Below, one piece after another: positions 755-19,448 of a DNA stretch of 64,000 bases. The notes under the pieces were generated by a model. The model had not been told where the DNA came from. It ran no database searches and worked only from the letters and a program-made list of their open reading frames with translations. The position numbers were made by a program, and so were the translations under genes. Every line of letters starts with the position of its first letter. The first letter of the stretch is position 1. The DNA is taken from positions 311,064-375,063 of the forward strand of contig NZ_QEKO01000002.1 of assembly GCF_003096595.1 (NCBI RefSeq). The letters are read 5' to 3'. The stretch is from Pusillimonas noertemannii (GTDB lineage Bacteria > Pseudomonadota > Gammaproteobacteria > Burkholderiales > Burkholderiaceae_B).

Positions 755-1471
755 ATGGAAATCAAAATCAACCTCGATCTTTCGGCGGCAGTGTCCAATG
801 CGCTGGCCCCTGAAAACCTCGCCCCGATCCTGAACAAGCACGTAACCGAGGCGATCACCAACGCCATACGCACCGCGACCGGCTACCGAAGCGAATTTTC
901 GGAAGCGCTTGAAGCGCAATTTAAGGAGCACATGCCACACGGCCTGGGCCTGGATGACGTTGTGAAATTCCAGCACGTCCTGAATGAAGCGCTGAAAGGG
1001 GCAGTTCACGGCGCAAACTTCGAGACCGTGAACGCAGCCCTGGCCGAAGCCGCAAAATCGGCACTGCCCGAAGTTCCGGCCATGGTGAGCATGTCGGAAC
1101 TCTTGAAAATGGCGCGCGAAAGCCTGACCTATGAAGAGGGTGAGGCCTTCTACGCCCTGTACGAAGAATCCGACCACGGGTACCGCCACCTCTACTTGGA
1201 TAGAAACCCGAAGGTTGGCAGTGCCTCTTTCGGAATCTACACGCGCGAAAGCAACAAATACAGCGCCGACATAGCCCTGTCATTCAACAAAGAGGGTGAG
1301 GTGTACTCGCTCAAATTCCGGGATGGTCATGTGACCCCATCATCCAGGCCGACCGTTATTTCGCGATTCGATTCAATTCTCATGGCTATGTATGTTGGCC
1401 GAACGCGATTGACGGTTGACATGGATGCCGACGAGGTTGAATACGCGGCACAGGAGAAATACGACGATTAA
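755..1471 (+). CDS. Hypothetical phage protein
   Basis: This 238-residue acidic protein starts at an ATG with AGGAA just upstream. The N-terminal half is helical and Ala-rich. The C-terminal half has a mixed alpha/beta look (YRHLYLDRNPKVGSASFGIY, IALSFNKEGEVYSLKF). It has no signal peptide, membrane segment or catalytic motif that I recognise. It is the last gene before a long gene-free stretch. Confidence 0.55.
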   Translation: MEIKINLDLSAAVSNALAPENLAPILNKHVTEAITNAIRTATGYRSEFSEALEAQFKEHMPHGLGLDDVVKFQHVLNEALKGAVHGANFETVNAALAEAAKSALPEVPAMVSMSELLKMARESLTYEEGEAFYALYEESDHGYRHLYLDRNPKVGSASFGIYTRESNKYSADIALSFNKEGEVYSLKFRDGHVTPSSRPTVISRFDSILMAMYVGRTRLTVDMDADEVEYAAQEKYDD

Positions 1472-1811
1472 GGGCAGTTCCCTAGCCGCCGGGGTCGAAA
1501 GATAGGGGCGGACGCAACAGCCGGCGGAGCGCGCTTCACTATCACCGGCAGCCAGAGAGTTACGGGCCTCTGATTTCCACCCGGCCCAACAATCCGTTTC
1601 GCGTGGGTGCCTCATGTGAGGGAAAGCCTGGGCATTCCGAGGGATTGGGTGCTTGATCTGGTGGGCAGCCTGGGAAGACGGGCAACACAATAACGCGAGC
1701 CTGAACGCGCACAGGCCCATGCCGGACATGGTTAAAGCCGAATCCCTTACGGCGGGCAGCCGAGGCCCATGCTTGAGCCTGTCTAACGTGTAATGACGAG
1801 CAAATACAGCA

Positions 1812-1831
1812 GGCCCTGCTTCGGCAGGGCC
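1812..1831 (+). repeat. UUCG tetraloop hairpin
   Basis: GGCCCTGC, then TTCG, then GCAGGGCC form an eight-pair perfect stem closed by a UUCG loop. No T-run follows, so it is unlikely to be a simple terminator. It abuts the left arm of the 1830/1993 inverted pair, so both could belong to one folded RNA of about 200 bases. Confidence 0.6.
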
Positions 1832-2007
1832 ATCACATAGGCGGCGGCGTGGAAAGCTGGGTCGCTCCCTAGAGACACGCACGAACGCATGGGCCTGATA
1901 GAAAGAGGTCGGATGACAAGGGGCACGCCAAGGCCACGCCCCCGAAGCCCGAATACAACCATGTCTCTCGTATAGCTGGGGCAGCGCCCAGCCCGCCTAT
2001 GTGATGG
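1830..2007. repeat. 15-base perfect inverted repeat, 148-base spacer
   Basis: CCATCACATAGGCGG at 1830-1844 is the exact reverse complement of the bases at 1993-2007. The pair could close a long stem around 1845-1992 in a transcript, or be paired binding sites in DNA. Nothing in the enclosed bases looks like a gene. Confidence 0.6.
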
Positions 2008-2027
2008 TCGCAGGAAAGCGTCAGGCA

Positions 2028-2044
2028 CCCGACTTGTAATCGGG
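2028..2044 (+). ncRNA. tRNA-Thr(UGU)-like anticodon hairpin (fragment)
   Basis: CCCGA-CTTGTAA-TCGGG is a five-pair stem with a seven-base loop. T lies at loop position 33, the TGT anticodon at 34-36 and A at 37, exactly as in bacterial tRNA-Thr. It is preceded by AGGCA, which fits the 3' side of a D-stem. I find no T-arm (GTTCRA) or acceptor pairing downstream, so this is a fragment, a degraded tRNA or chance. Confidence 0.3.
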
Positions 2045-2192
2045 CCAGCCAAGGACAAACGCGATGATAAGCCACTGGCCTCGCGCCGACGCCATACGGG
2101 TAGCGCCCGGCGTCCATCTTCAAATTCCCCTCAAAAAACCCCCAAATCGAAAGGCCGGCACTCCGCCGGGCCGATCACATGGAGCGCGTCCT

Positions 2193-2453
2193 ATGAAAAC
2201 CGCAATCAAAACCACCAACGAAATTGCCGCTGCATATGATTCGGCCCCGCTGATGTTCAAGCGCGAATCGACCCGGCACCCCTACAGCCCGAACAGGCGC
2301 TTGAAGCCTTCGCAGGAATATCGCTTCGAGGGCAAGGGCGGATACGCCCCCAACAGCGACAAAATCCCCCTGCTACCGGCCATCGGGTACACGGCGGCAT
2401 TCATCGGCGCTGGCGCTTTCTTCATGTTCGTCGGCGCGGCGGCTGGATTCTGA
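2193..2453 (+). CDS. Small phage protein with C-terminal membrane anchor
   Basis: The 86-residue protein starts at the ATG at 2193, chosen over an earlier in-frame ATG at 2064 because GGAGCG lies six bases upstream. The N-terminal part is basic and polar. The last 25 residues (IGYTAAFIGAGAFFMFVGAAAGF) form one glycine-rich transmembrane helix. Its stop is followed almost directly by the next start. The function is unknown. Confidence 0.55.
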   Translation: MKTAIKTTNEIAAAYDSAPLMFKRESTRHPYSPNRRLKPSQEYRFEGKGGYAPNSDKIPLLPAIGYTAAFIGAGAFFMFVGAAAGF

Positions 2454-2454
2454 C

Positions 2455-2676
2455 ATGGCCGGCAAAACCGTAACCGTGAAGTGCAAGGCATGCCAATCGC
2501 CATTCGAGGCCCGCGTAGCCGACCGCCGGCGCGGCTGGGGCCGATTCTGTTCAAAGTCCTGCAAAGCCATCCATCAAGAGCGGCGCTCCGGGCAGTACCG
2601 GGATTGGCTCAACGGGGCCGACCCGGATCACAACCCTGAATTTTCAAACGCTCACCAGTTCGACAACTGCGAATAG
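2455..2676 (+). CDS. Small zinc-finger protein (phage)
   Basis: The 73-residue protein has a CxxC pair (C10, C13) and a CxxxC pair (C32, C36) separated by an Arg-rich loop. This FCS-type treble-clef pattern is common in small phage proteins next to recombination genes. It probably binds one zinc ion and perhaps nucleic acid. It sits just upstream of the recT-like gene and is likely cotranscribed with it. Confidence 0.65.
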   Translation: MAGKTVTVKCKACQSPFEARVADRRRGWGRFCSKSCKAIHQERRSGQYRDWLNGADPDHNPEFSNAHQFDNCE

Positions 2677-2698
2677 TGACACCACAAGGAAATGAGAA

Positions 2699-3571
2699 AT
2701 GTCTGAACTTCAAACACTCCCCGACCAGGCGCAGTCAAGCACCAGCGCGCTGATCCTCGACCCCAATTCATTCGACAAGGTAATGGCTTTTGCCGACATG
2801 ATGGCAAAAGGCAGCGCCACCGTGCCGCGCCACCTGCAGGGCAACCCAGCAGACTGCGCCGCCGTCACCATCCAGGCGATGCAATGGCAAATGAACCCGT
2901 TTGCCGTGGCCCAAAAGACCCACCTGACCCAGGGCGGCACACTGGGTTACGAGGCCCAGCTTGTGAACGCCGTTGTAATCGCGCGCGCGCCCATCGAGAC
3001 TCGCCCCGAGTTCACCTTCATCGGCGACTGGGACAAGATTCTAGGCCGGGTCGAAGAGCGCAAATCGGACAAGGGCGGGAAATACTACGTGGCCGGCTGG
3101 AAGCCATCCGATGAAATCGGCCTCGGTGTTATTTGCAGTTGCCTGATCCGTGGCGAGGCCGTTCCGCGCGAAATCAAAGTCATGATGACCCAGGCCTACC
3201 CGCGATTCTCAACCCAGTGGGCCACCGACCCGCAGCAGCAGATTACCTACCTGGCTGTGCGCAAGTGGGCGCGCCGCTACGCGCCTGACGTGATCCTCGG
3301 CGTCCACACCAACGACGAACTTGAACCGATTGACGGCTATCAAATGCGCGACATGGGGCCGGCTGAAACCGCCACGCACGAAGAGCCGGCCAGCAAGGAA
3401 CTGCCGCCATATTCCGACCAGAGCATTGAAGAGAACAAGGCCAAGTGGCAAGAGGCAATCGACTCGGGGCGGCTCAAAACGGAGCAGCTTATTGCCAATA
3501 TCCGGTCGAAGTACACGCTAAGCGCCCAGCAACTTCGCACCATTCAGAACATGGAAGCCGTCACGGCATAA
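2699..3571 (+). CDS. recT: RecT-family single-strand annealing protein
   Basis: This 290-residue protein matches the RecT family, which coats single strands and anneals complementary DNA during phage recombination. The core (about 20-205) includes the family-typical stretch MQWQMNPFAVAQKTHLTQGG followed by LGYEAQLVNAVV. A charged variable tail follows. The start is preceded by AAGGA. The gene lies ten bases upstream of the YqaJ-type exonuclease, the usual partner. Together they form a RecE/RecT-like recombination module. Confidence 0.9.
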   Translation: MSELQTLPDQAQSSTSALILDPNSFDKVMAFADMMAKGSATVPRHLQGNPADCAAVTIQAMQWQMNPFAVAQKTHLTQGGTLGYEAQLVNAVVIARAPIETRPEFTFIGDWDKILGRVEERKSDKGGKYYVAGWKPSDEIGLGVICSCLIRGEAVPREIKVMMTQAYPRFSTQWATDPQQQITYLAVRKWARRYAPDVILGVHTNDELEPIDGYQMRDMGPAETATHEEPASKELPPYSDQSIEENKAKWQEAIDSGRLKTEQLIANIRSKYTLSAQQLRTIQNMEAVTA

Positions 3572-3580
3572 GGAAACCAC

Positions 3581-5251
3581 ATGAAAGTCCATAACGTAAT
3601 TCAAGGCTCGCCGGAATGGCTGGCCCTGCGCTTCAAGTGCCTCACCGCCAGCGAAGCCCCGGTAATGATGTCGGCCACCACAAAGATGATGCGCAATGAA
3701 TTGCTGCGCATGAAGGCGACAGGCGCTGAACGCGAATACAGCGACTGGGTTCAGCGCAACCTCTTCGACAAAGGCCACGAATACGAAGCGGCGGCCCGTG
3801 TGATTGTCGAAGAAATGATTGGGGAAGAGCTTTTCCCGACGACCGCCACCGACGACGAAGAACGGATTCTGGCGTCGTTCGACGGAATCACCATGCTCGG
3901 GGAAGTCATTTTCGAGCACAAAATGTGGAACGAGACACTGGCCCAGGCCGTGCGAGAGCGCAACCTTCCGCCGGAGTACTTCTGGCAGCTTGAACAGCAA
4001 CTGCTTGTCAGCAAGGCTGAAAAGGCCATTTTCGTGGTATCGGACGGCACCCGCGAGAAATTCGTCTGGATGGAGTACACGCCGGTCGATGGCCGCGCCG
4101 CCCTGCTGCTGGCGGGCTGGGCGCAGTTTGAGAATGACCTTGCCACGTACGAAGTTGTGGACGAAAAGCCCCAGGCCGTTGGCCGCTCCCCTGAAAACCT
4201 GCCGGCGCTTCGAATCGAAGTCACTGGCATGGTGACGGACAGCAACCTTCAGGCGTTTCGAGAGCATGCCCTAAGCGTCATCGGGGCAATCAACCGCGAC
4301 CTCGTTACCGACCAGCACTTTGCCGACGCCGAAAAGACGGTCAAGTGGTGCAAGGACGTTGAAGACCGGCTCGCGGCTGCAAAACGCCATGCGCTCGCCC
4401 AAACCACCAGCATTGACGAACTGTTCCGCACCCTGGACGCCATCGGCGAAGAGACGCGCAGCACTCGACTGGAACTGGATCGGCTTGTGAAGGCCATGAA
4501 GGAGAACCGCCGGAACGAGATTCTGGCCGCTGGCAAGAAGGCTTTTGCCGACCATATCGCGGCGCTGAATAAGCGGCTCGGAACGGTGCGCATGCCCGAG
4601 GTTTCCTGCGACATTGCCACGGCCATGAAGGGTAAGCGAACCATCGCCACCCTGCAGGACGCGGCAGACAGCACCGTGGCGGCGGCGAAGATCGAAGCCA
4701 GCATGATCGCTGACAAGATTGACGAAAACCTCGAAACGCTCCGCACGGAAGCTGACGAATATTCGTTCCTATTCACCGACGCCCAGCAGCTTGTCATGAA
4801 GGAAAACGCTGACTTGGTGCTGGTGATCAACGCCCGGATTTCCCACCACAAGAAAATGGAGGAAGAAAGGATTGAGCGGGATCGCGCCAAAATCCGCGAA
4901 GAAGAAGCCGAGAAAGCGCGCTTGGCAGCCGCGCCGGCCCCTGTCGCCCAGCCAGCAGCGGCACCAGCCCCGGCACAGAGTCAGGCCGCGCCGGTTCGCC
5001 AGGCCTATCGGCCAGCACCAGCGCCCGCAGCACAGCATGAATACCATGACGCCCCTGATCTTCGGATCGGCAACATTTGCGGGCGGCTGGGTTTCACCAT
5101 GACGGCGGGCTTTCTGGAAGGCATCGGATTCGAGCCGGCAGGGCGAGAGCGCGGCGCGGTTCTGTACCACGAAAGCGACTTCGACCGCATCTGCGTAGCC
5201 CTGATCAACCATATCGAAAGCGTCCGCGTCGAGCATCACGAAATGGCCTGA
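3581..5251 (+). CDS. YqaJ-type viral recombinase exonuclease with long C-terminal extension
   Basis: Residues 1-200 are a YqaJ/lambda-exonuclease-type nuclease. They carry GSPEWLALR (9-17), TASE (22-25), KGHEYE (64-69) and a metal-binding core of D101 in SFDG plus E112 and K114 in EHK. It would resect double-stranded ends to load the RecT protein encoded upstream. The family is usually 200-350 residues; here 556 residues include a helical middle with charged coiled-coil character (about 240-440), a Pro/Ala linker (about 448-490) and a small C-terminal domain. The extension may bind a partner; that is inference. Confidence 0.87.
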   Translation: MKVHNVIQGSPEWLALRFKCLTASEAPVMMSATTKMMRNELLRMKATGAEREYSDWVQRNLFDKGHEYEAAARVIVEEMIGEELFPTTATDDEERILASFDGITMLGEVIFEHKMWNETLAQAVRERNLPPEYFWQLEQQLLVSKAEKAIFVVSDGTREKFVWMEYTPVDGRAALLLAGWAQFENDLATYEVVDEKPQAVGRSPENLPALRIEVTGMVTDSNLQAFREHALSVIGAINRDLVTDQHFADAEKTVKWCKDVEDRLAAAKRHALAQTTSIDELFRTLDAIGEETRSTRLELDRLVKAMKENRRNEILAAGKKAFADHIAALNKRLGTVRMPEVSCDIATAMKGKRTIATLQDAADSTVAAAKIEASMIADKIDENLETLRTEADEYSFLFTDAQQLVMKENADLVLVINARISHHKKMEEERIERDRAKIREEEAEKARLAAAPAPVAQPAAAPAPAQSQAAPVRQAYRPAPAPAAQHEYHDAPDLRIGNICGRLGFTMTAGFLEGIGFEPAGRERGAVLYHESDFDRICVALINHIESVRVEHHEMA

Positions 5252-7139: not shown

Positions 7140-8276
7140 ATGTGGTTCAAAAATCTGAAAGTATTCCGCCTGTCCAACTGGACGCTATCCGCCGACGAAC
7201 TGGCCGAACGGCTCGAAAAAGCCGCCCACAAGCCCATTGGCGCGAGCGAAATGCAAAGCACCGGCTGGGTTCAGCCGCGCGACGGCGAGGGTTTCGTGCA
7301 TGCCCTGGACGGCCAGCTTCTGATCAGCCTGCGGGCGGAGCAAAAGCTGTTGCCAGCATCGGTGGTCAATCAGGTTGCCAAGGCCAAGGCCCAGGAAATC
7401 GAAGAGCAGCAGGGATACAAGCCTGGCCGCAAGCAGATGAAGGAAATCAAGGAGCAAGTCACTGACGAACTGCTACCCAAGGCTTTCAGTTCGTACCGCG
7501 ACACGCGCGCCTGGATCGACACGAAAAACCGCTGGCTTGTCATTGACGCATCCTCTTCGACCAAAAGCGACGAAGTGTTGGGCATGCTGGCAAAGGCCAT
7601 TGATCCCTTCCCCGTGACACCGCTTTACGTCGAACAATCGCCCGCCGCCGCTATGACGAACTGGCTGATTGACGACGAAGCGCCCGCCAATTTCAGCATT
7701 GACCAAGACAGCGAACTTAGCTCCACCAGCGAAAGCCGCGCCGCCGTGCGCTATGTGCGCCAAAGCATTGAAATTGACGATGTACGCAAGCACGTACAGG
7801 CCGGAAAGCAATGCACGCGCCTGGCGCTGACCTGGGCCGACCGAGTTTCGTTCGTGCTGACCGAGGGGCTGGACATTAAGCGCGTGACGCCCCTGGACGT
7901 GCTGCGCGAGAATCAGGACAGCGCGGCACAGAACGAAGTCGAACAGTTCGATTCCGACTTTACGCTCATGACCGGCGAACTGGCCCGCCTGATTGCATCC
8001 CTCGTTGAAGCGCTGGGCGGCGAAAAGGCTACCGACACGCCAGCGGCCACCGTTACAAGCGAAAGCATCGGCGACCCTGACGATGAACCCTATCAGTTGG
8101 CCGTCAATGTCGTTCTGGAAAACAAGGTTGCGTCCATTTCTGCCATTCAACGGCACTTGGCTATCGGATACAACCAGGCAGCCCGGCACCTTGAGCGAAT
8201 GGAGAGGGACGGCATCGTTTCTGCAATGGAACCGAACGGCCACCGTGAAATCCTTTGGGCGAACGCGCCGGCATGA
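7140..8276 (+). CDS. rdgC: RdgC-like protein fused to an FtsK-gamma winged helix
   Basis: Residues 1-300 are RdgC (start [11 protein letters not shown], then [10 protein letters not shown] and LGGE near the end). RdgC is a ring-shaped DNA-binding protein that blocks RecA loading. Normal RdgC stops near residue 300. Here a short linker leads into residues 314-374, which match the FtsK gamma domain closely ([20 protein letters not shown] then [12 protein letters not shown]). In FtsK that domain reads the polar KOPS sites and contacts XerD. The fusion would give RdgC sequence-directed binding. It lies downstream of the recombination genes and overlaps the next gene by ATGA. Confidence 0.87.
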
Positions 8277-8719
8277 AGAAAAAGCGCAGGGATAAGAAAT
8301 ACACCCCGCGCATCGCCAGAATCCCGATCACCAAGCTACGCGACGACATAGCCCTGATCATCCACACAAGCATCGTAAGGCTGGCCGCCGGGCCAGACCT
8401 CGATGCTTACGACAACCTCGCCGAAAACATCAATCTGGTGGGCATTGCCTTGGAGGGCAAGCCCGCGTTTTCGCGCGAGTTCGCCCTGATCGCTGGCGGC
8501 GCGCGGGCAATGAACCAAATCGGCGAGTTAGTGACCGCCGGCCACACCCCAAAGCCACACCACATAGCGCCGATCCGCGTTGCGGTCAACACGATTGACG
8601 CCGTGCTGGGCAGGCTGGACGTGGAAACGCTCTACGTGGCCGAACTGGCCGCACACGCCGCCATGCGGCAAGGATATGAAGATGCAAAAAAAGCAATTCC
8701 TGCTACCAATAGCCAGTGA
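8273..8719 (+). CDS. Hypothetical phage protein
   Basis: The 148-residue protein starts at the ATG overlapping the rdgC stop. It has a very basic N-terminus ([19 protein letters not shown]), then an all-helical body. I do not recognise the family, though the helical body recalls small DNA-associated phage proteins. Its end overlaps the cytosine methyltransferase start by 38 bases. Confidence 0.55.
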
Positions 8720-10595
8720 AATCACGGTTGACCTGTTCGCCGGCGGCGGCGGCTGGAGTAGCGCTTATGAACTGGCCACCGGGCAGCATGTTCATGTGGC
8801 CGTCAACCACGACCCCGATGCAATCAGCATGCATGAGGTCAATCACCCCCAGGCCAAGCACTACAAGGCGGACGTTTTCGAGGTTTGCCCGCACGAAGCC
8901 ACGGGAGGCATGCCGGTAGGCTGGCTGCACCTTTCGCCAGACTGCACCCACCACAGCCAGGCCAAGGGCGGACAGCCCCGAGACCGCAAGATACGGGCGC
9001 TGGCCTGGGTTGGCGCGCGCTGGGCCGGACAAGTCCGCCCCCGCATCATCAGCCTCGAAAACGTCAAGCAAATCCTGAACTGGGGTTCGCTGGTGGCGAA
9101 GCGCGACAAGGCCACCGGACGGGTATTGAAGCTGGACGGCACCGTGGCAGAAAAAGGCGAGCGCGTTCCACTTGACCAGCAATTCCTGATCCCCGACCCC
9201 AAAAAGGCCGGGCAGACGTGGAAGAGGTTCGTGTCCGTGCTGCGAAATATGGGCTACACGGTCGAATGGCGGCGTCTTGTGGCCGCCGACTATGGCGCTC
9301 CGACCACGCGCGACCGGCTGTTCCTCATGGCGCGGTGCGACGGCATGCCGATTGAATGGCCCTTGGCTACCCACTTCGAGAATCCCAAGCGCGGGCAATT
9401 GAAATGGCGTTCTGCAGCCGAGTGCATCGACTGGTCTATTGAAGGCAAGTCCATCTTCAACCGAAAAAGGCCATTGGCGGAAGCCACCATGCGCCGCGTC
9501 GCCCGTGGCGTCGAGCGGTACGTCATCAACAACGCCAAGCCCTTCATCGTTCCCGTGACGCACCAGGGCCAAGTCAGGGTTCACAACATCGACGCGCCAC
9601 TGAAAACTGTAACCGGGGCGAATCGCGGCGAACTCATGCTTGGAACGCCGGTACTGGTTCAGACCGGCTACGGCGAACGCGACGGACAGGCCCCGCGCTC
9701 ACTGGACATGCAAAAGCCGCTGGGAACTGTCGTGGCGGGCGGAACAAAGCATGCCGTGGCAATGCCGATCCTGATCCAGGCCGCGCACGGCGATGGAAAG
9801 CCCGGCGGCGTACAGCGCTGGGGATCTGGCGTAAAGGACATTCAAGGCCCGCTCAACACCATCACAGCAACAGGAAGCGGGGGCCAGGCAGTCGCTACCG
9901 CTTTCCTTGCGCAGATGAACGGCGGGTTCAACAATACGCCAGGACATTCGGCAGAGCGCCCAATGACGACCGTCACGAACACGGGCAGCCAGCAGCAGCT
10001 TGTCACGGCACACCTTGCCCACCTTCGCGGCAATTGCGACGCCAGAGACGTTGACGAACCGCTGCACACCATCAGCGCCGGCGGCCAGCATCACGCCACA
10101 GTAACCGCCTTCCTTACCAGGCAGTTTGGGAATAGCACCGGGCAAAAGCTGGATGATCCGGCTCCGACCGTAGTGGCAGGTGGCGGCGGAAAAACGGCCC
10201 TCACTGAATGCGTGCTGTCTAAAGATGACGAAGCCGGCGCGCTGCGCGTGGCCGCCTTCCTGATCCGGTATTACAGCGAAGGCGGCCAATGGGGAGACTT
10301 GCGCGACCCTATCGACACAATCACTACCCGCGACAGGCTGGCGCTTGTCACGGTGTACATCAAGGGTACGCCCTATGTGATTGTCGATATAAAGCTGCGC
10401 ATGCTTGAGCCGCGAGAACTCTACGCGGCCCAGGGCTTCCACCCCGACTACATCATCACTCACGGCCATGACGGGCGCAAGTTCTCGAAGTCGGCCCAGG
10501 TCAAGATGGTTGGCAACAGCGTAAGCCCGCACCCGGCCCGGGCGCTCATTGAAGCGAACTGGAAGACAAACGAGCCAATGAGGTTGGTAGCATGA
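8682..10595 (+). CDS. DNA (cytosine-C5) methyltransferase with repeated specificity region
   Basis: The 637-residue protein starts at 8682, with AAGGA eight bases upstream; the open frame before it only shadows the previous gene. It shows motif I DLFAGGGGWSS (17-27), the catalytic loop SPDCTHHSQAKGG with C88 (DC rather than the usual PC), motif VI ENV (126-128), a TRDR box for motif VIII, and the final motif KMVGNSVSPHPA. Between motifs VIII and IX, about 280 residues hold repeats of roughly 40 residues built on PL-T(V/I)-AGG. A phage enzyme of this type would protect its DNA from host restriction. Confidence 0.9.
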   Translation: MQKKQFLLPIASEITVDLFAGGGGWSSAYELATGQHVHVAVNHDPDAISMHEVNHPQAKHYKADVFEVCPHEATGGMPVGWLHLSPDCTHHSQAKGGQPRDRKIRALAWVGARWAGQVRPRIISLENVKQILNWGSLVAKRDKATGRVLKLDGTVAEKGERVPLDQQFLIPDPKKAGQTWKRFVSVLRNMGYTVEWRRLVAADYGAPTTRDRLFLMARCDGMPIEWPLATHFENPKRGQLKWRSAAECIDWSIEGKSIFNRKRPLAEATMRRVARGVERYVINNAKPFIVPVTHQGQVRVHNIDAPLKTVTGANRGELMLGTPVLVQTGYGERDGQAPRSLDMQKPLGTVVAGGTKHAVAMPILIQAAHGDGKPGGVQRWGSGVKDIQGPLNTITATGSGGQAVATAFLAQMNGGFNNTPGHSAERPMTTVTNTGSQQQLVTAHLAHLRGNCDARDVDEPLHTISAGGQHHATVTAFLTRQFGNSTGQKLDDPAPTVVAGGGGKTALTECVLSKDDEAGALRVAAFLIRYYSEGGQWGDLRDPIDTITTRDRLALVTVYIKGTPYVIVDIKLRMLEPRELYAAQGFHPDYIITHGHDGRKFSKSAQVKMVGNSVSPHPARALIEANWKTNEPMRLVA

Positions 10596-10822: not shown

Positions 10823-11665
10823 ATGACGGCAACCCGCCCAATACTTCGATACCACGGCGGGAAGTGGCGGCTGGCTCCCTGGATCATCGGCCATTTCCCT
10901 GACCACAAGGTCTACACGGAAGCGTTTGGCGGCGGCGGTTCCGTGCTTTTAAAGAAATCAAGGTCATACGCGGAGGTCTACAACGACCTTGATGGCGAAG
11001 TCGTCAATTTATTCAGAGTCATGCGCGACAACGGCGACGAACTGCGCGCCAAGCTGGAACTGACGCCGTTTTCTCGGGATGAATTTTCCCTGTCTTACGA
11101 GCCGAGCTCGAGCAGCATTGAGCAGGCAAGGCGCACCGTAGTCCGCTCATTTATGGGCTTCGGATCATCCGCCATCAGCAAACAATCAACTGGGTTTCGG
11201 GCCAATAGCTCACGCTCCTACACCACGCCAGCGCATGACTGGGCGAACTACCCGGACGCGGCCAAGGCCATCGTTGACAGGCTCCGGGGCGTGACTATTG
11301 AAAACCGCGACGCCCTGGCGATCATCAAGCAGCATGACGCGGATTTCACGCTGCATTACGTTGATCCGCCATATCCACACAGCACACGCACCAACGGCGC
11401 ATCGGACGATGTATCGCAGTACCGATACGAAATGACGGACGAGCAGCACCGCGAGTTGGCGGCACTGCTTCATTCGGTCAAGGGCATGGTGGTTCTTTCT
11501 GGCTACCCATGTGACCTGTACGACAAAGACCTCTACCCAGGCTGGAAGCGAATTGCCCGCAAGGCGTTCGCGGACGGCGCGCGAGAGCGCACAGAGGTTA
11601 TCTGGCTTAACGACGCCTGCGCAAGCGGGCTAAATCAGCACGACTTATTTAGGAGAATTGCATGA
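10823..11665 (+). CDS. dam: DNA adenine-N6 methyltransferase (D12 class, Dam-like)
   Basis: The 280-residue enzyme carries the D12-class motifs: RYHGGKWRLAPWI near the start, the SAM-binding loop EAFGGGGSVLL (33-43) and the catalytic DPPY (181-184). It transfers a methyl group from SAM to adenine, probably to protect phage DNA or tune phage gene expression. The start abuts the upstream stop behind the G9 tract. The stop overlaps the next start by ATGA. Confidence 0.92.
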   Translation: MTATRPILRYHGGKWRLAPWIIGHFPDHKVYTEAFGGGGSVLLKKSRSYAEVYNDLDGEVVNLFRVMRDNGDELRAKLELTPFSRDEFSLSYEPSSSSIEQARRTVVRSFMGFGSSAISKQSTGFRANSSRSYTTPAHDWANYPDAAKAIVDRLRGVTIENRDALAIIKQHDADFTLHYVDPPYPHSTRTNGASDDVSQYRYEMTDEQHRELAALLHSVKGMVVLSGYPCDLYDKDLYPGWKRIARKAFADGARERTEVIWLNDACASGLNQHDLFRRIA

Positions 11666-12861
11666 GCAACACAGCTACCCCGGTTGACAGCATCAAGAAC
11701 AAGGTTTCCACCTTCATCGAACTGATGGCCGAAGCCGCCCAGGCCGGGTACTGCGGATCATCGCTTGAAATCAAGAACACCGATGGCCGCCTGAACCTTC
11801 GTTTCACGTACTGCGCGCCGCTGGATATTCTGCATGCGGCAGAGGTCAACGGAACGCCCAGCACCATCCTGGGCGTGGCCCTGGTGAAGGCCGGCAAAGG
11901 CTACGAATGGCAGCGCATCGACGCCAACGGCAACAAGGCAGACAACCCGGGCAAGGCGTTTTTCGACGCGCACCCGGTATTCGGGCAAATCAAGGACGTT
12001 CAGATTGACGGGCAACACATGGTTGTGGTGCCGCGTTTCTACGTCAAGCGCGCCCGCCTTGCGACCGGCCCCTACGCTGGCAGCCAGGCATGGTTCATCA
12101 GCGAAACGGAGCAGCCCGGATTTGCCCCTCACTCTGCCTTCAAGACCGCCGGCCAGCCGGACAAGGGCTTTTATGTCGGGAAATATCAGGCCAGCCTGTG
12201 CGACAAGAAGCTGGCCTCATTGCCTGACACCGTGCCAGCCGTGGGCTTGAGCCTGAACAAGTTCCACGCATGCGCCGTGTCGCGCAATGATACGGTTGGT
12301 GAAGATGGCTGGATGCAATGGATCGCCTACCAGCTTGCGGCCATCCAGTGGCTGTATCTCATTGAAAACGCCTCCATGGACTCCATAAGCACTACCGGGC
12401 GCGGGCGGATTGATGAAAGCAGCAAGGCCAAAGTGGACGCCAGCGACGTAACCCAGGCCTCGTACCGTGGCATTACTGGGCTTTGGGGCAATGTCTGGCA
12501 ATGGCTTGGCGGGCTGAAACTGGTTGACGGGGTTGTGCATGTTGCCGATCCGGCCAACCCCAGGGCATGGATCAATACCGGCCACACGCCCCCGTACGAC
12601 GAATACTACGCAACCGAGTTTGCCGAAGGCGAGCATATCGGCGACCTGTTCATTGCCAGCAAGAGCGTCGATTACCAGTCGCAGGCGGCGACACCGAGCA
12701 TCCACTACTACCGCGAAAGCACAGGCGAGTTTTTCTCGCTTGTGGGCGGGACTTGGACGAGCGCGTCCACTGCGGGGCTGTGGTGCCTGCACCTCGGCAA
12801 CCCCGCGTCCAACTCGAACACGGCCGTCGGCGCTCGCCTCGCGAAGCGTTTTGTGTCTTGA
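11662..12861 (+). CDS. C-type-lectin-fold variable protein of a DGR (candidate)
   Basis: The 399-residue protein ends like the targets of diversity-generating retroelements. GNVWQW (276-281) is the conserved core of the formylglycine/C-type-lectin fold. The last 38 residues (from about 362; bases about 12745-12861) include GNPASNSNTAVGAR, the Ser/Asn-rich, Gly-Ala-Arg-ending pattern of variable repeats such as that of Mtd in Bordetella phage BPP-1. Sixteen bases after the stop lies a hairpin with a GATA loop, matching the GRNA hairpin needed for retrohoming. No reverse transcriptase or template repeat was seen in the window. In other phages such proteins bind receptors; here it sits among early genes after two methyltransferases. 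Confidence 0.75.
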   Translation: MSNTATPVDSIKNKVSTFIELMAEAAQAGYCGSSLEIKNTDGRLNLRFTYCAPLDILHAAEVNGTPSTILGVALVKAGKGYEWQRIDANGNKADNPGKAFFDAHPVFGQIKDVQIDGQHMVVVPRFYVKRARLATGPYAGSQAWFISETEQPGFAPHSAFKTAGQPDKGFYVGKYQASLCDKKLASLPDTVPAVGLSLNKFHACAVSRNDTVGEDGWMQWIAYQLAAIQWLYLIENASMDSISTTGRGRIDESSKAKVDASDVTQASYRGITGLWGNVWQWLGGLKLVDGVVHVADPANPRAWINTGHTPPYDEYYATEFAEGEHIGDLFIASKSVDYQSQAATPSIHYYRESTGEFFSLVGGTWTSASTAGLWCLHLGNPASNSNTAVGARLAKRFVS

Positions 12862-12876
12862 AACTTGCGTTGTGAT

Positions 12877-12898
12877 GCAACGGGCGATAGCCCGTTGC
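12877..12898 (+). repeat. DGR-type GRNA tetraloop hairpin after the variable region
   Basis: GCAACGGGC, loop GATA and GCCCGTTGC form a nine-pair perfect stem starting 16 bases after the stop of the variable-protein gene. In characterised DGRs a 7-10 pair hairpin or cruciform with a GRNA loop just downstream of the variable repeat promotes retrohoming; stem length, loop and position all fit. A plain terminator is less likely because no T-run follows directly. Confidence 0.65.
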
Positions 12899-18539: not shown

Positions 18540-18824
18540 ATGCAAGTTGAAGACGTGCAAAGCCTTGCGAGAGAAATTGCCGCCCGCATGGCTCCCGACG
18601 CCCTGCTGGACGCCGAAGACGTTGCGGCGATCCTGAAATGCACCGCCAAGTACGTTACCTCGCAGTACGCCATCACGCCGGGCTTCCCCGGAGCCATTCG
18701 CCTTACCGGCCCTGGCGACCGGCGCAGCAAGCCGCGCTGGAAGCGTAGCGATATAATGGCCTGGATCGACTCCCATCAGGGCGGCAGGTCGAAGCGCGGC
18801 GGCAGGCCAAGGAATGCAGACTAA
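18540..18824 (+). CDS. AlpA/excisionase-like helix-turn-helix protein
   Basis: The 94-residue protein has a MerR/AlpA-style pattern: LLDAEDVAAILKCTAKYVTS as the recognition helices, and KPRWKRSDIMAWIDSHQG as the wing and trailing helix, then a basic tail. This layout is typical of phage excisionases and AlpA regulators. Its place at the end of the phage block, next to host-like DNA, fits an excisionase. No integrase gene accompanies it, so the integration module looks incomplete. Confidence 0.7.
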   Translation: MQVEDVQSLAREIAARMAPDALLDAEDVAAILKCTAKYVTSQYAITPGFPGAIRLTGPGDRRSKPRWKRSDIMAWIDSHQGGRSKRGGRPRNAD

Positions 18825-18885: not shown

Positions 18886-18904
18886 GGTGCCGGCCCCGGG
18901 CACC
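18886..18904. repeat. Inverted repeat near the phage edge, possible att region
   Basis: GGTGCC and GGCACC flank a GC-rich seven-base centre just after the excisionase-like gene, followed by ACTCC. GGGCACCA recalls a tRNA 3' end, but no T-arm is present. It may be part of an attachment site or a weak terminator of the gene at 18540. Confidence 0.3.
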
Positions 18905-18989
18905 ACTCCTACCGCGCAGGGCCAAGACCCTTAGGCGCTAATTCTCAAAATTTCTGAATCCGTACGCTCTGCGTGAGAGCATTTCCATC

Positions 18990-19448
18990 TTGGTATGGAA
19001 CCCTTCAGTGCCATCGTTTGGCTACCGCACCGTCACGGCGTTGCTGGGCATGAACAAGAACACCGTCCAGCGCATCTTTCACCTCAAGGGCTGGCAGCGC
19101 CCTGGAACATGCTTTAATCGCTCGCTTCGGAACGCTGGGCCGTGTGCAGAGCCGTTCCTGCTTCGGTCGGATAACGGGCTCGTTTTTACCAGTCGTAGCC
19201 ATACCGCGATGGTTCGCAGCTACCGATTACGCCAGGAGTTCATCACGCCGCATCGCCCACAGCAAAACGGCATGGTCGAACGTGTCATCAGAACGCTTAA
19301 AGAGCAATGTGCCCATCGGCAGCGCTTTGAAACCTTGCAGCATGCCAGCCGCGTGATCGGCGACTGGATATACTTTTACAACCACCGGCGCCCACACCAG
19401 GCGTTGAATATGAAAACCCCGGCTGAGGCCTTTGCATTAGCCACATGA
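18990..19448 (+). pseudogene. IS3-family transposase remnant with internal deletion
   Basis: The product starts like an IS2/IS1404-type OrfB (FGYRTVTALLGMNKNTVQRI). After FHLKGWQRPG it jumps to the catalytic C-terminal part (LLRSDNGLVFTSRSHTAMVR, then ITPHRPQQNGMVERVIRTLK, RRPHQALNMKTPAEAFA). The middle of the integrase core, including the first catalytic Asp, is missing. It therefore cannot be active. It marks the junction between the prophage and the following region. Confidence 0.88.

Follow-up and report, generated by a model that had tools for sequence, protein, structure and literature searches.

The DGR of Bordetella phage BPP-1 and its variable protein Mtd combine a reverse transcriptase (RT), Avd, a template repeat (TR), adenine-specific change, a target gene whose 3' end holds a variable repeat (VR) followed by a hairpin, and a lectin fold (PMC6642488, PMC12875486), all of which recur at the locus described here. 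The hairpin behind the VR of a DGR typically has a GRNA loop (PMC4372165). TaqVP (PDB 5vf4), the variable protein of a DGR in a prophage of Thermus aquaticus, is similar in size to the protein of this locus, VP2. VRs far from the RT were described in the cellular genomes of Treponema denticola, Thiohalocapsa PB-PSB1 and cyanobacteria (PMC10907252, PMC4891356, PMC7517822); two Thiohalocapsa VRs agree with a TR located elsewhere at every site that is not an adenine. One DGR with two variable regions was described for tentaclins (PMC10743442) and for the Faecalibacterium phages Lelie, Lagaffe_CP and CP11 (PMC11792537), with adenine-linked variation at both regions in Lagaffe_CP and CP11. Remote targets in bacteria and two-target phage DGRs are already known. 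Statements about published systems, here and below, follow the available text of the papers cited.

The stand-alone gene and its DGR

The window, the whole 64-kb stretch of DNA that was analysed, corresponds to G000:C2:311064-375063, where G000 is the P. noertemannii genome and C2 the contig; positions without a prefix are those of the window. The stand-alone DGR variable protein gene VP2 is located at 11662..12861 (+) and encodes a 399 aa protein of lectin-type fold, assigned from phrog_5302 (tail protein, E 1e-40) and from fold matches. The ORF translation contains the GNVWQW motif and ends in VGARLAKRFVS, consistent with an earlier note on this DNA, which had described a 399-residue protein with this core and a Gly-Ala-Arg-containing end. 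VP2 had no match in Pfam, NCBIfam or PADLOC. A DNA search against 50,697 phage records gave zero matches, and a protein search of phage records matched 13, all distant (24-34% identity) and none reaching 80% query coverage. For the first 69 residues no relative was found among phages; an N-terminal extra of ∼70 residues is common to VP2 and the Castellaniella form.

The variable repeat of VP2 (VR2, 12725..12845, +, 121 nt) matches a TR at C2:258330-258470. The earlier note had placed a repeat at 12745-12861; the repeat exists, with its real bounds slightly upstream. Over the 121 nt there are 10 mismatches, 10/10 at TR adenines, and all 96 non-adenine TR positions are identical. In an alignment of 128 nt, 11/13 mismatches are at TR adenines (Fisher p 1.9e-7). 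Zero mismatches occur where the VR carries A. Eight VP2 codons are altered with respect to the TR (residues 360, 364, 367, 370, 377, 379, 388 and 389), six of which are AAY in the TR. Searching the genome with the TR gave 18 matches. Three of them are long, namely the TR itself, the VR of a fibre-type gene (VR1) and VR2; the remaining 15 are of only 14-22 nt. VR1 differs from the TR over 121 nt at nine positions, 9/9 at TR adenines.

An inverted repeat of 9 bp with a GATA loop, GCAACGGGC-GATA-GCCCGTTGC, is located behind VR2 at 12877..12898 (+) and starts at the 16th base after the VP2 stop, where the earlier note had reported a nine-pair hairpin. No other perfect hairpin with a GRNA loop and at least 8 bp occurs on either strand of the 64-kb window; by comparison, 47 of 2000 85-nt segments drawn at random from the window contain a hairpin with any loop of 3-5 nt and at least 8 Watson-Crick pairs. 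The hairpin of the fibre-type target has another sequence and the same shape, with 9 pairs (one G-T) and a GAAA loop.

The DGR cassette was located on the same contig, with VR2 ∼65 kb downstream of the TR. The RT ORF (C2:257122-258534, minus; PF00078, RVT_1, E 1.1e-20) contains YMDD (L035 9122-10534). Against NCBIfam no DGR-specific RT model passed, and other RT families were below their cut-offs. The Avd gene is at C2:258488-258889 (minus; PF22296, bAvd, E 5.6e-22; NF033474 95.2 bits, cut-off 80), the TR falls in the interval separating the Avd gene from the RT domain, and a tail-fibre-like gene of 857 aa, the fibre-type target, is at C2:258891-261464 (minus). RT, Avd, TR and tail-fibre-like target together make up a complete set of DGR parts. 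The VR1 and VR2 targets are on opposite strands. A search of the genome for RVT_1 gave a single match, outside the window. The earlier note had called VP2 an orphan and had raised two options, targeting in trans or a stranded target. The orphan description holds for the window and fails for the replicon, where RT, Avd and a near-copy with adenines at the differences were all found on the same contig; these parts and the 10/10 adenine mismatches of VR2 support targeting in trans.

Judged from sequence, VP2 is very probably an additional, distant target of the DGR that this prophage itself carries. The RT-Avd pair would copy TR RNA with errors at adenines, and the mutagenic cDNA would home to two sites, the 3' end of the 857-aa gene and the 3' end of VP2, each marked by the shared repeat and the hairpin behind it. 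VP2 would be reached in trans, homing needing the repeat, the 3' end of the repeat and the hairpin; we infer that retrohoming occurs in the window prophage. A DGR reconstituted in E. coli is active when encoded on separate plasmids (PMC12875486), which in principle removes distance as an obstacle. The orientation of the target with respect to replication was also reported to matter (PMC12875486), which makes the opposite strands of the two targets here a testable asymmetry.

Genomic setting, domain layout and fold

VP2 is located among phage early genes after two methyltransferase genes, as the earlier note had stated. Pfam matches in the early arm identified RecT (2699-3571, +), a YqaJ-like nuclease (3581-5251, +), RdgC (7140..8276, +), a C5 cytosine methyltransferase (8580..10595, +; PF00145, E 8.3e-23) whose true start is probably downstream of 8580, and a D12-class adenine methyltransferase (10823..11665, +; PF02086, E 1.3e-20). 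The RdgC gene carries an FtsK-gamma domain fused at the C terminus. An SSB, from reading of its translation, appears to be among the neighbours too. Rfam placed a Proteo-phage-1 RNA (RF03044) in the early arm at 1480-1553 (+) (45.3 bits; gathering score 42). The start codon of VP2 overlaps the stop of the D12-class methyltransferase gene by 4 nt; the two genes likely form one operon, and this overlap suggests that VP2 would be expressed together with the early genes. The most hydrophobic 19-residue stretch of VP2 has a Kyte-Doolittle mean of 1.02, and the protein, having no strongly hydrophobic stretch, is predicted to be cytosolic.

The neighbours of related genes were counted by tblastn within 6 kb, leaving out L110, L117, L125, L130 and L131 of one 47-locus set and L010, L031, L032 and L033 of one 24-locus set. 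Early queries were found near 24/27 stand-alone and 0/44 fibre-type genes, and late queries near 2/27 and 42/44; because the early queries were partly chosen after the loci had been inspected and many loci are near-copies, these counts are a description and no independent test. No early neighbour was present within 6 kb at L114 (cut off), L127 and L129; at L127 the stand-alone gene is beside its own Avd. VP2 has early queries and no late query within this distance. In Mu-like phages the stand-alone gene is between Gam/HU and Mor. In G209, G126 and G088 it is near an integrase gene (G209 by PHROGs, with no match in Pfam), with a primase also nearby in G209 and G126. In the window, G197, G202, L086-L088 and L090-L095 it is among relatives of RecT, YqaJ, SSB, RdgC or the C5 methyltransferase.

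In the set of loci compared for domain layout, the part ahead of the lectin domain is 0-68 residues long in stand-alone forms (∼70 in VP2) and 502-532 in fibre forms, except L115 with 313; L130, with 228, was left unclassed. VP2 has neither the place in a tail cluster nor the long virion-attachment region expected of a tail receptor-binding protein. In a tree built from 29 of 30 alignment rows, one duplicate being left out, the stand-alone and fibre labels need at least two changes; as the tree has no root, it fits two gains as well as one gain with one loss.

The AlphaFold model of VP2 (pLDDT 78.7, pTM 0.76) was compared with the PDB. Eight chains had E ≤ 0.001, all of them TaqVP or Mtd. TaqVP was the best PDB fold, matching over nearly the full length (E 1.1e-15, TM 0.52, rmsd 6.7), and phmmer also matched VP2 to 5vf4 with E 1.3e-8. 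Matches to Mtd had E values of 3e-4 to 1e-3 and poor superposition, with TM about 0.3 and rmsd about 17. As modelled, the fold of VP2 is nearest to DGR variable proteins.

The early neighbours, the absence of a long attachment region and of an evident export signal, and the diversified binding fold lead us tentatively to regard VP2 as a possible intracellular phage binding protein, whose diversification could be aimed, for instance, at proteins of the host or of rival phages. DNA ends are protected by Mu Gam, and methyltransferases help phages to escape restriction; Gam and methyltransferase neighbours would hint at a counter-host role. More broadly, it is conceivable that temperate phages of different kinds, both Mu-like and integrase-type, acquired, perhaps more than once, a cytosolic, early-made lectin-fold binder that is hypermutated by the tail-fibre DGR, antibody-like, and counters host defence proteins or rival phages, so that DGR-driven adaptation would have a second front in addition to adsorption; we advance this with reserve.

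The main alternative is that VP2 is a second virion receptor-binding protein or a released adhesin that is encoded out of place, so that the DGR would diversify two adsorption proteins. The 857-aa protein, whose lectin domain is homologous to that of VP2, is encoded near baseplate genes. PHROGs files the family as a tail protein, and the two-target phage DGRs of tentaclins concern receptor-binding proteins (PMC10743442). A role in adsorption is harder to reconcile with the short pre-lectin part of the stand-alone forms (0-68 residues versus mostly 502-532 in fibre forms) and with the early genes near 24 of 27 stand-alone genes; this alternative is possible, at less than an even chance.

Recurrence and variation in relatives

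A relative of VP2 was found in 9/268 genomes of the window's family, its own genome included. All eight other genomes also contain an RT match to the prophage RT at E ≤ 1e-5. The stand-alone gene is present in five of these (G088, G209, G126, G197 and G202), and three (G121, G194 and G235) show the fibre-type gene only. In G235 the RT is 97% identical and the TR is without change at any adenine, yet only the fibre-type gene was found, in an assembly 81% complete; the G121 assembly is 78% complete.

Stand-alone targets away from the RT were scored in 16 phages, with G274, which is the phage of G088, counted once, and with TR matching in virus records confined to the sequence that separates Avd from the RT. 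In 12/16, TR adenines accounted for at least 75% of the TR/VR mismatches, 75% being the line used for secondary targets in PMC8144416. The fractions were 10/10 in G000, 9/9 in G088, 13/16 in G209, 16/19 in G126 (one an indel), 15/19 in G197, 12/16 in G202 (RT on another contig), 13/14 in L005, 12/12 and 15/15 for the two copies in L012, 12/13 in G276, 12/16 in G278, 21/27 in G282 and 13/13 in G284. Lower fractions were obtained for G281 (6/10), G275 (9/20) and G296 (7/16), and the stand-alone target of G283 gave no TR match. No RT match was found in 7/26 virus records searched. Two tandem RT genes are present at G197:C43:198894-201628, at G202:C7:11307-14072 and in the records of G275 and G283, with 56-57% and 38-45% identity to the RT used as query. 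The stand-alone gene of G284 is ∼6 kb from the RT; in this record the fibre gene and the RT occupy opposite ends, which reads as a circle opened between the two. The stand-alone target is ∼27 kb from the RT in the Mu-like record IMGVR_UViG_3300032155_000021.

The window prophage was represented by one genome, and natural variation was scored in its relatives. The VRs of L011, L014, L015, L017 and L018 were compared with the TR of L006, which is on another contig, and had 11/11, 16/17, 12/12, 11/11 and 13/13 mismatches at TR adenines, respectively. L021 has two differences from the TR of L020, one at an adenine, and is almost the template itself. The metagenomic loci L014, L015, L017 and L018 have 0 differences over the 900 nt before the VR, and within the VR any two of them differ by 12-19 nonsynonymous and 0-1 synonymous changes. 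For seven relatives pooled, excluding both L012 copies, pN/pS was 0.17 outside the VR and 12.3 inside. The identity over 900 nt, the replacement changes in the VR and the pN/pS values together indicate that the remote genes are working targets with the remaining protein under purifying selection. The earlier note had proposed that homologues be compared for adenine-directed variation; a TR and an adenine bias were both found.

L012 carries two remote stand-alone targets in tandem (1284-3562), both adenine-mutated with respect to one TR, the first of which is a chimera whose second half is like the fibre-type gene of its phage group (L006 row). Such a chimera would be expected if VP2 were a reservoir, with diversified lectin domains exchanged with the fibre gene by recombination. 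We consider this unlikely, as the lectin domains of VP2 and of the 857-aa protein have only ∼50% of residues in common over 68-395, VR included, and the pN/pS of 0.17 outside the VR in relatives fits an expressed protein and not a silent store.

In L007 (7938-9176, Castellaniella sp. S9) the VR of the remote target differs from the TR by a one-base length change in addition to adenine changes, which puts its ending out of frame. This frame may be real or an assembly error; if real, it would mean that the stand-alone gene can be lost. VP2 might likewise be a stranded relic, diversified once and now unused, in line with the out-of-frame Castellaniella relative, the absence of the RT from the window and the single genome by which the window prophage was represented. 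The conservation of 96/96 non-adenine TR positions in VR2, the open frame and intact hairpin of VP2, and the fresh hypermutation of its relatives make this quite improbable.

The putative prophage and comparison with known systems

A 16-bp repeat, CCGGCCCCGGGCACCA, was found at C2:250654 and C2:329953, and the pair encloses both DGR targets. A tyrosine integrase gene is beside the left copy, which reads as a tRNA 3' end; ARAGORN detected a complete tRNA neither in the window nor in C2:228001-328000. The right copy (18890..18905, no strand assigned) is a putative attR. It follows an excisionase/HTH-like gene at the right end of the prophage (18540..18824, +), whose best match was phrog_4996 (E 4.8e-11), a family of unknown function; it also matched the excisionase family phrog_66 (E 7.7e-6) and had no Pfam match. 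A transposase-like ORF, from reading of its translation, is directly beyond the putative attR at 18990-19448. Between the repeats are leftward baseplate, sheath and terminase genes and the rightward early arm with RecT, YqaJ, RdgC and the two methyltransferases. Both targets would be in one putative prophage of ∼79.3 kb, contractile-tailed because of its sheath gene, and the TR-VR2 distance of ∼65 kb in the prophage would be ∼14 kb in the excised circle defined by the putative ends. That each target has its own prophage, the two sharing a DGR family by chance, is highly unlikely. In its favour, the element predicted by IMG/VR is 97 kb and begins before the integrase (inferred from L010 coordinates), and a second integrase-like gene (C2:249104-250441, by reading) is just outside the left repeat. 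Against it, integrase, baseplate, sheath, terminase and early genes are all within a single pair of repeats, inspection of the gene listing showed no further set of tail or packaging genes, and the two-arm layout recurs in other phages.

With VP2 as the remote target of the prophage's own DGR, the layout can be set against published systems. A survey of >30,000 DGRs used an approach that would miss targets away from the RT (PMC8144416), and no description of a remote early-arm DGR target in phages was found in the available text of the open-licence PMC literature. Phage DGRs are mostly read as devices altering tail receptor-binding proteins; the recurrence of the early-arm layout in several kinds of virus suggests diversification beyond tails. 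If early-arm targets are regular, targeted hypermutation in phages acts on a protein that possibly never leaves the cell, and what VP2 binds becomes an answerable question. The loci also provide natural cases of a single TR feeding two sites, which in this prophage are on opposite strands.

Among two-target phage DGRs, both targets of tentaclins are presented as one cassette (PMC10743442), and the target genes and distances of the Faecalibacterium phages are not named in the available text of PMC11792537. The remote targets of cellular systems are in bacterial genomes, whereas the target here is a phage early-arm gene found in several phage types. The DGR of TaqVP is described as resembling that of BPP-1 in genetic structure (PMC6328139). 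In BPP-1 the elements are described as adjacent, whereas here the second target is ∼65 kb away, in the early arm.
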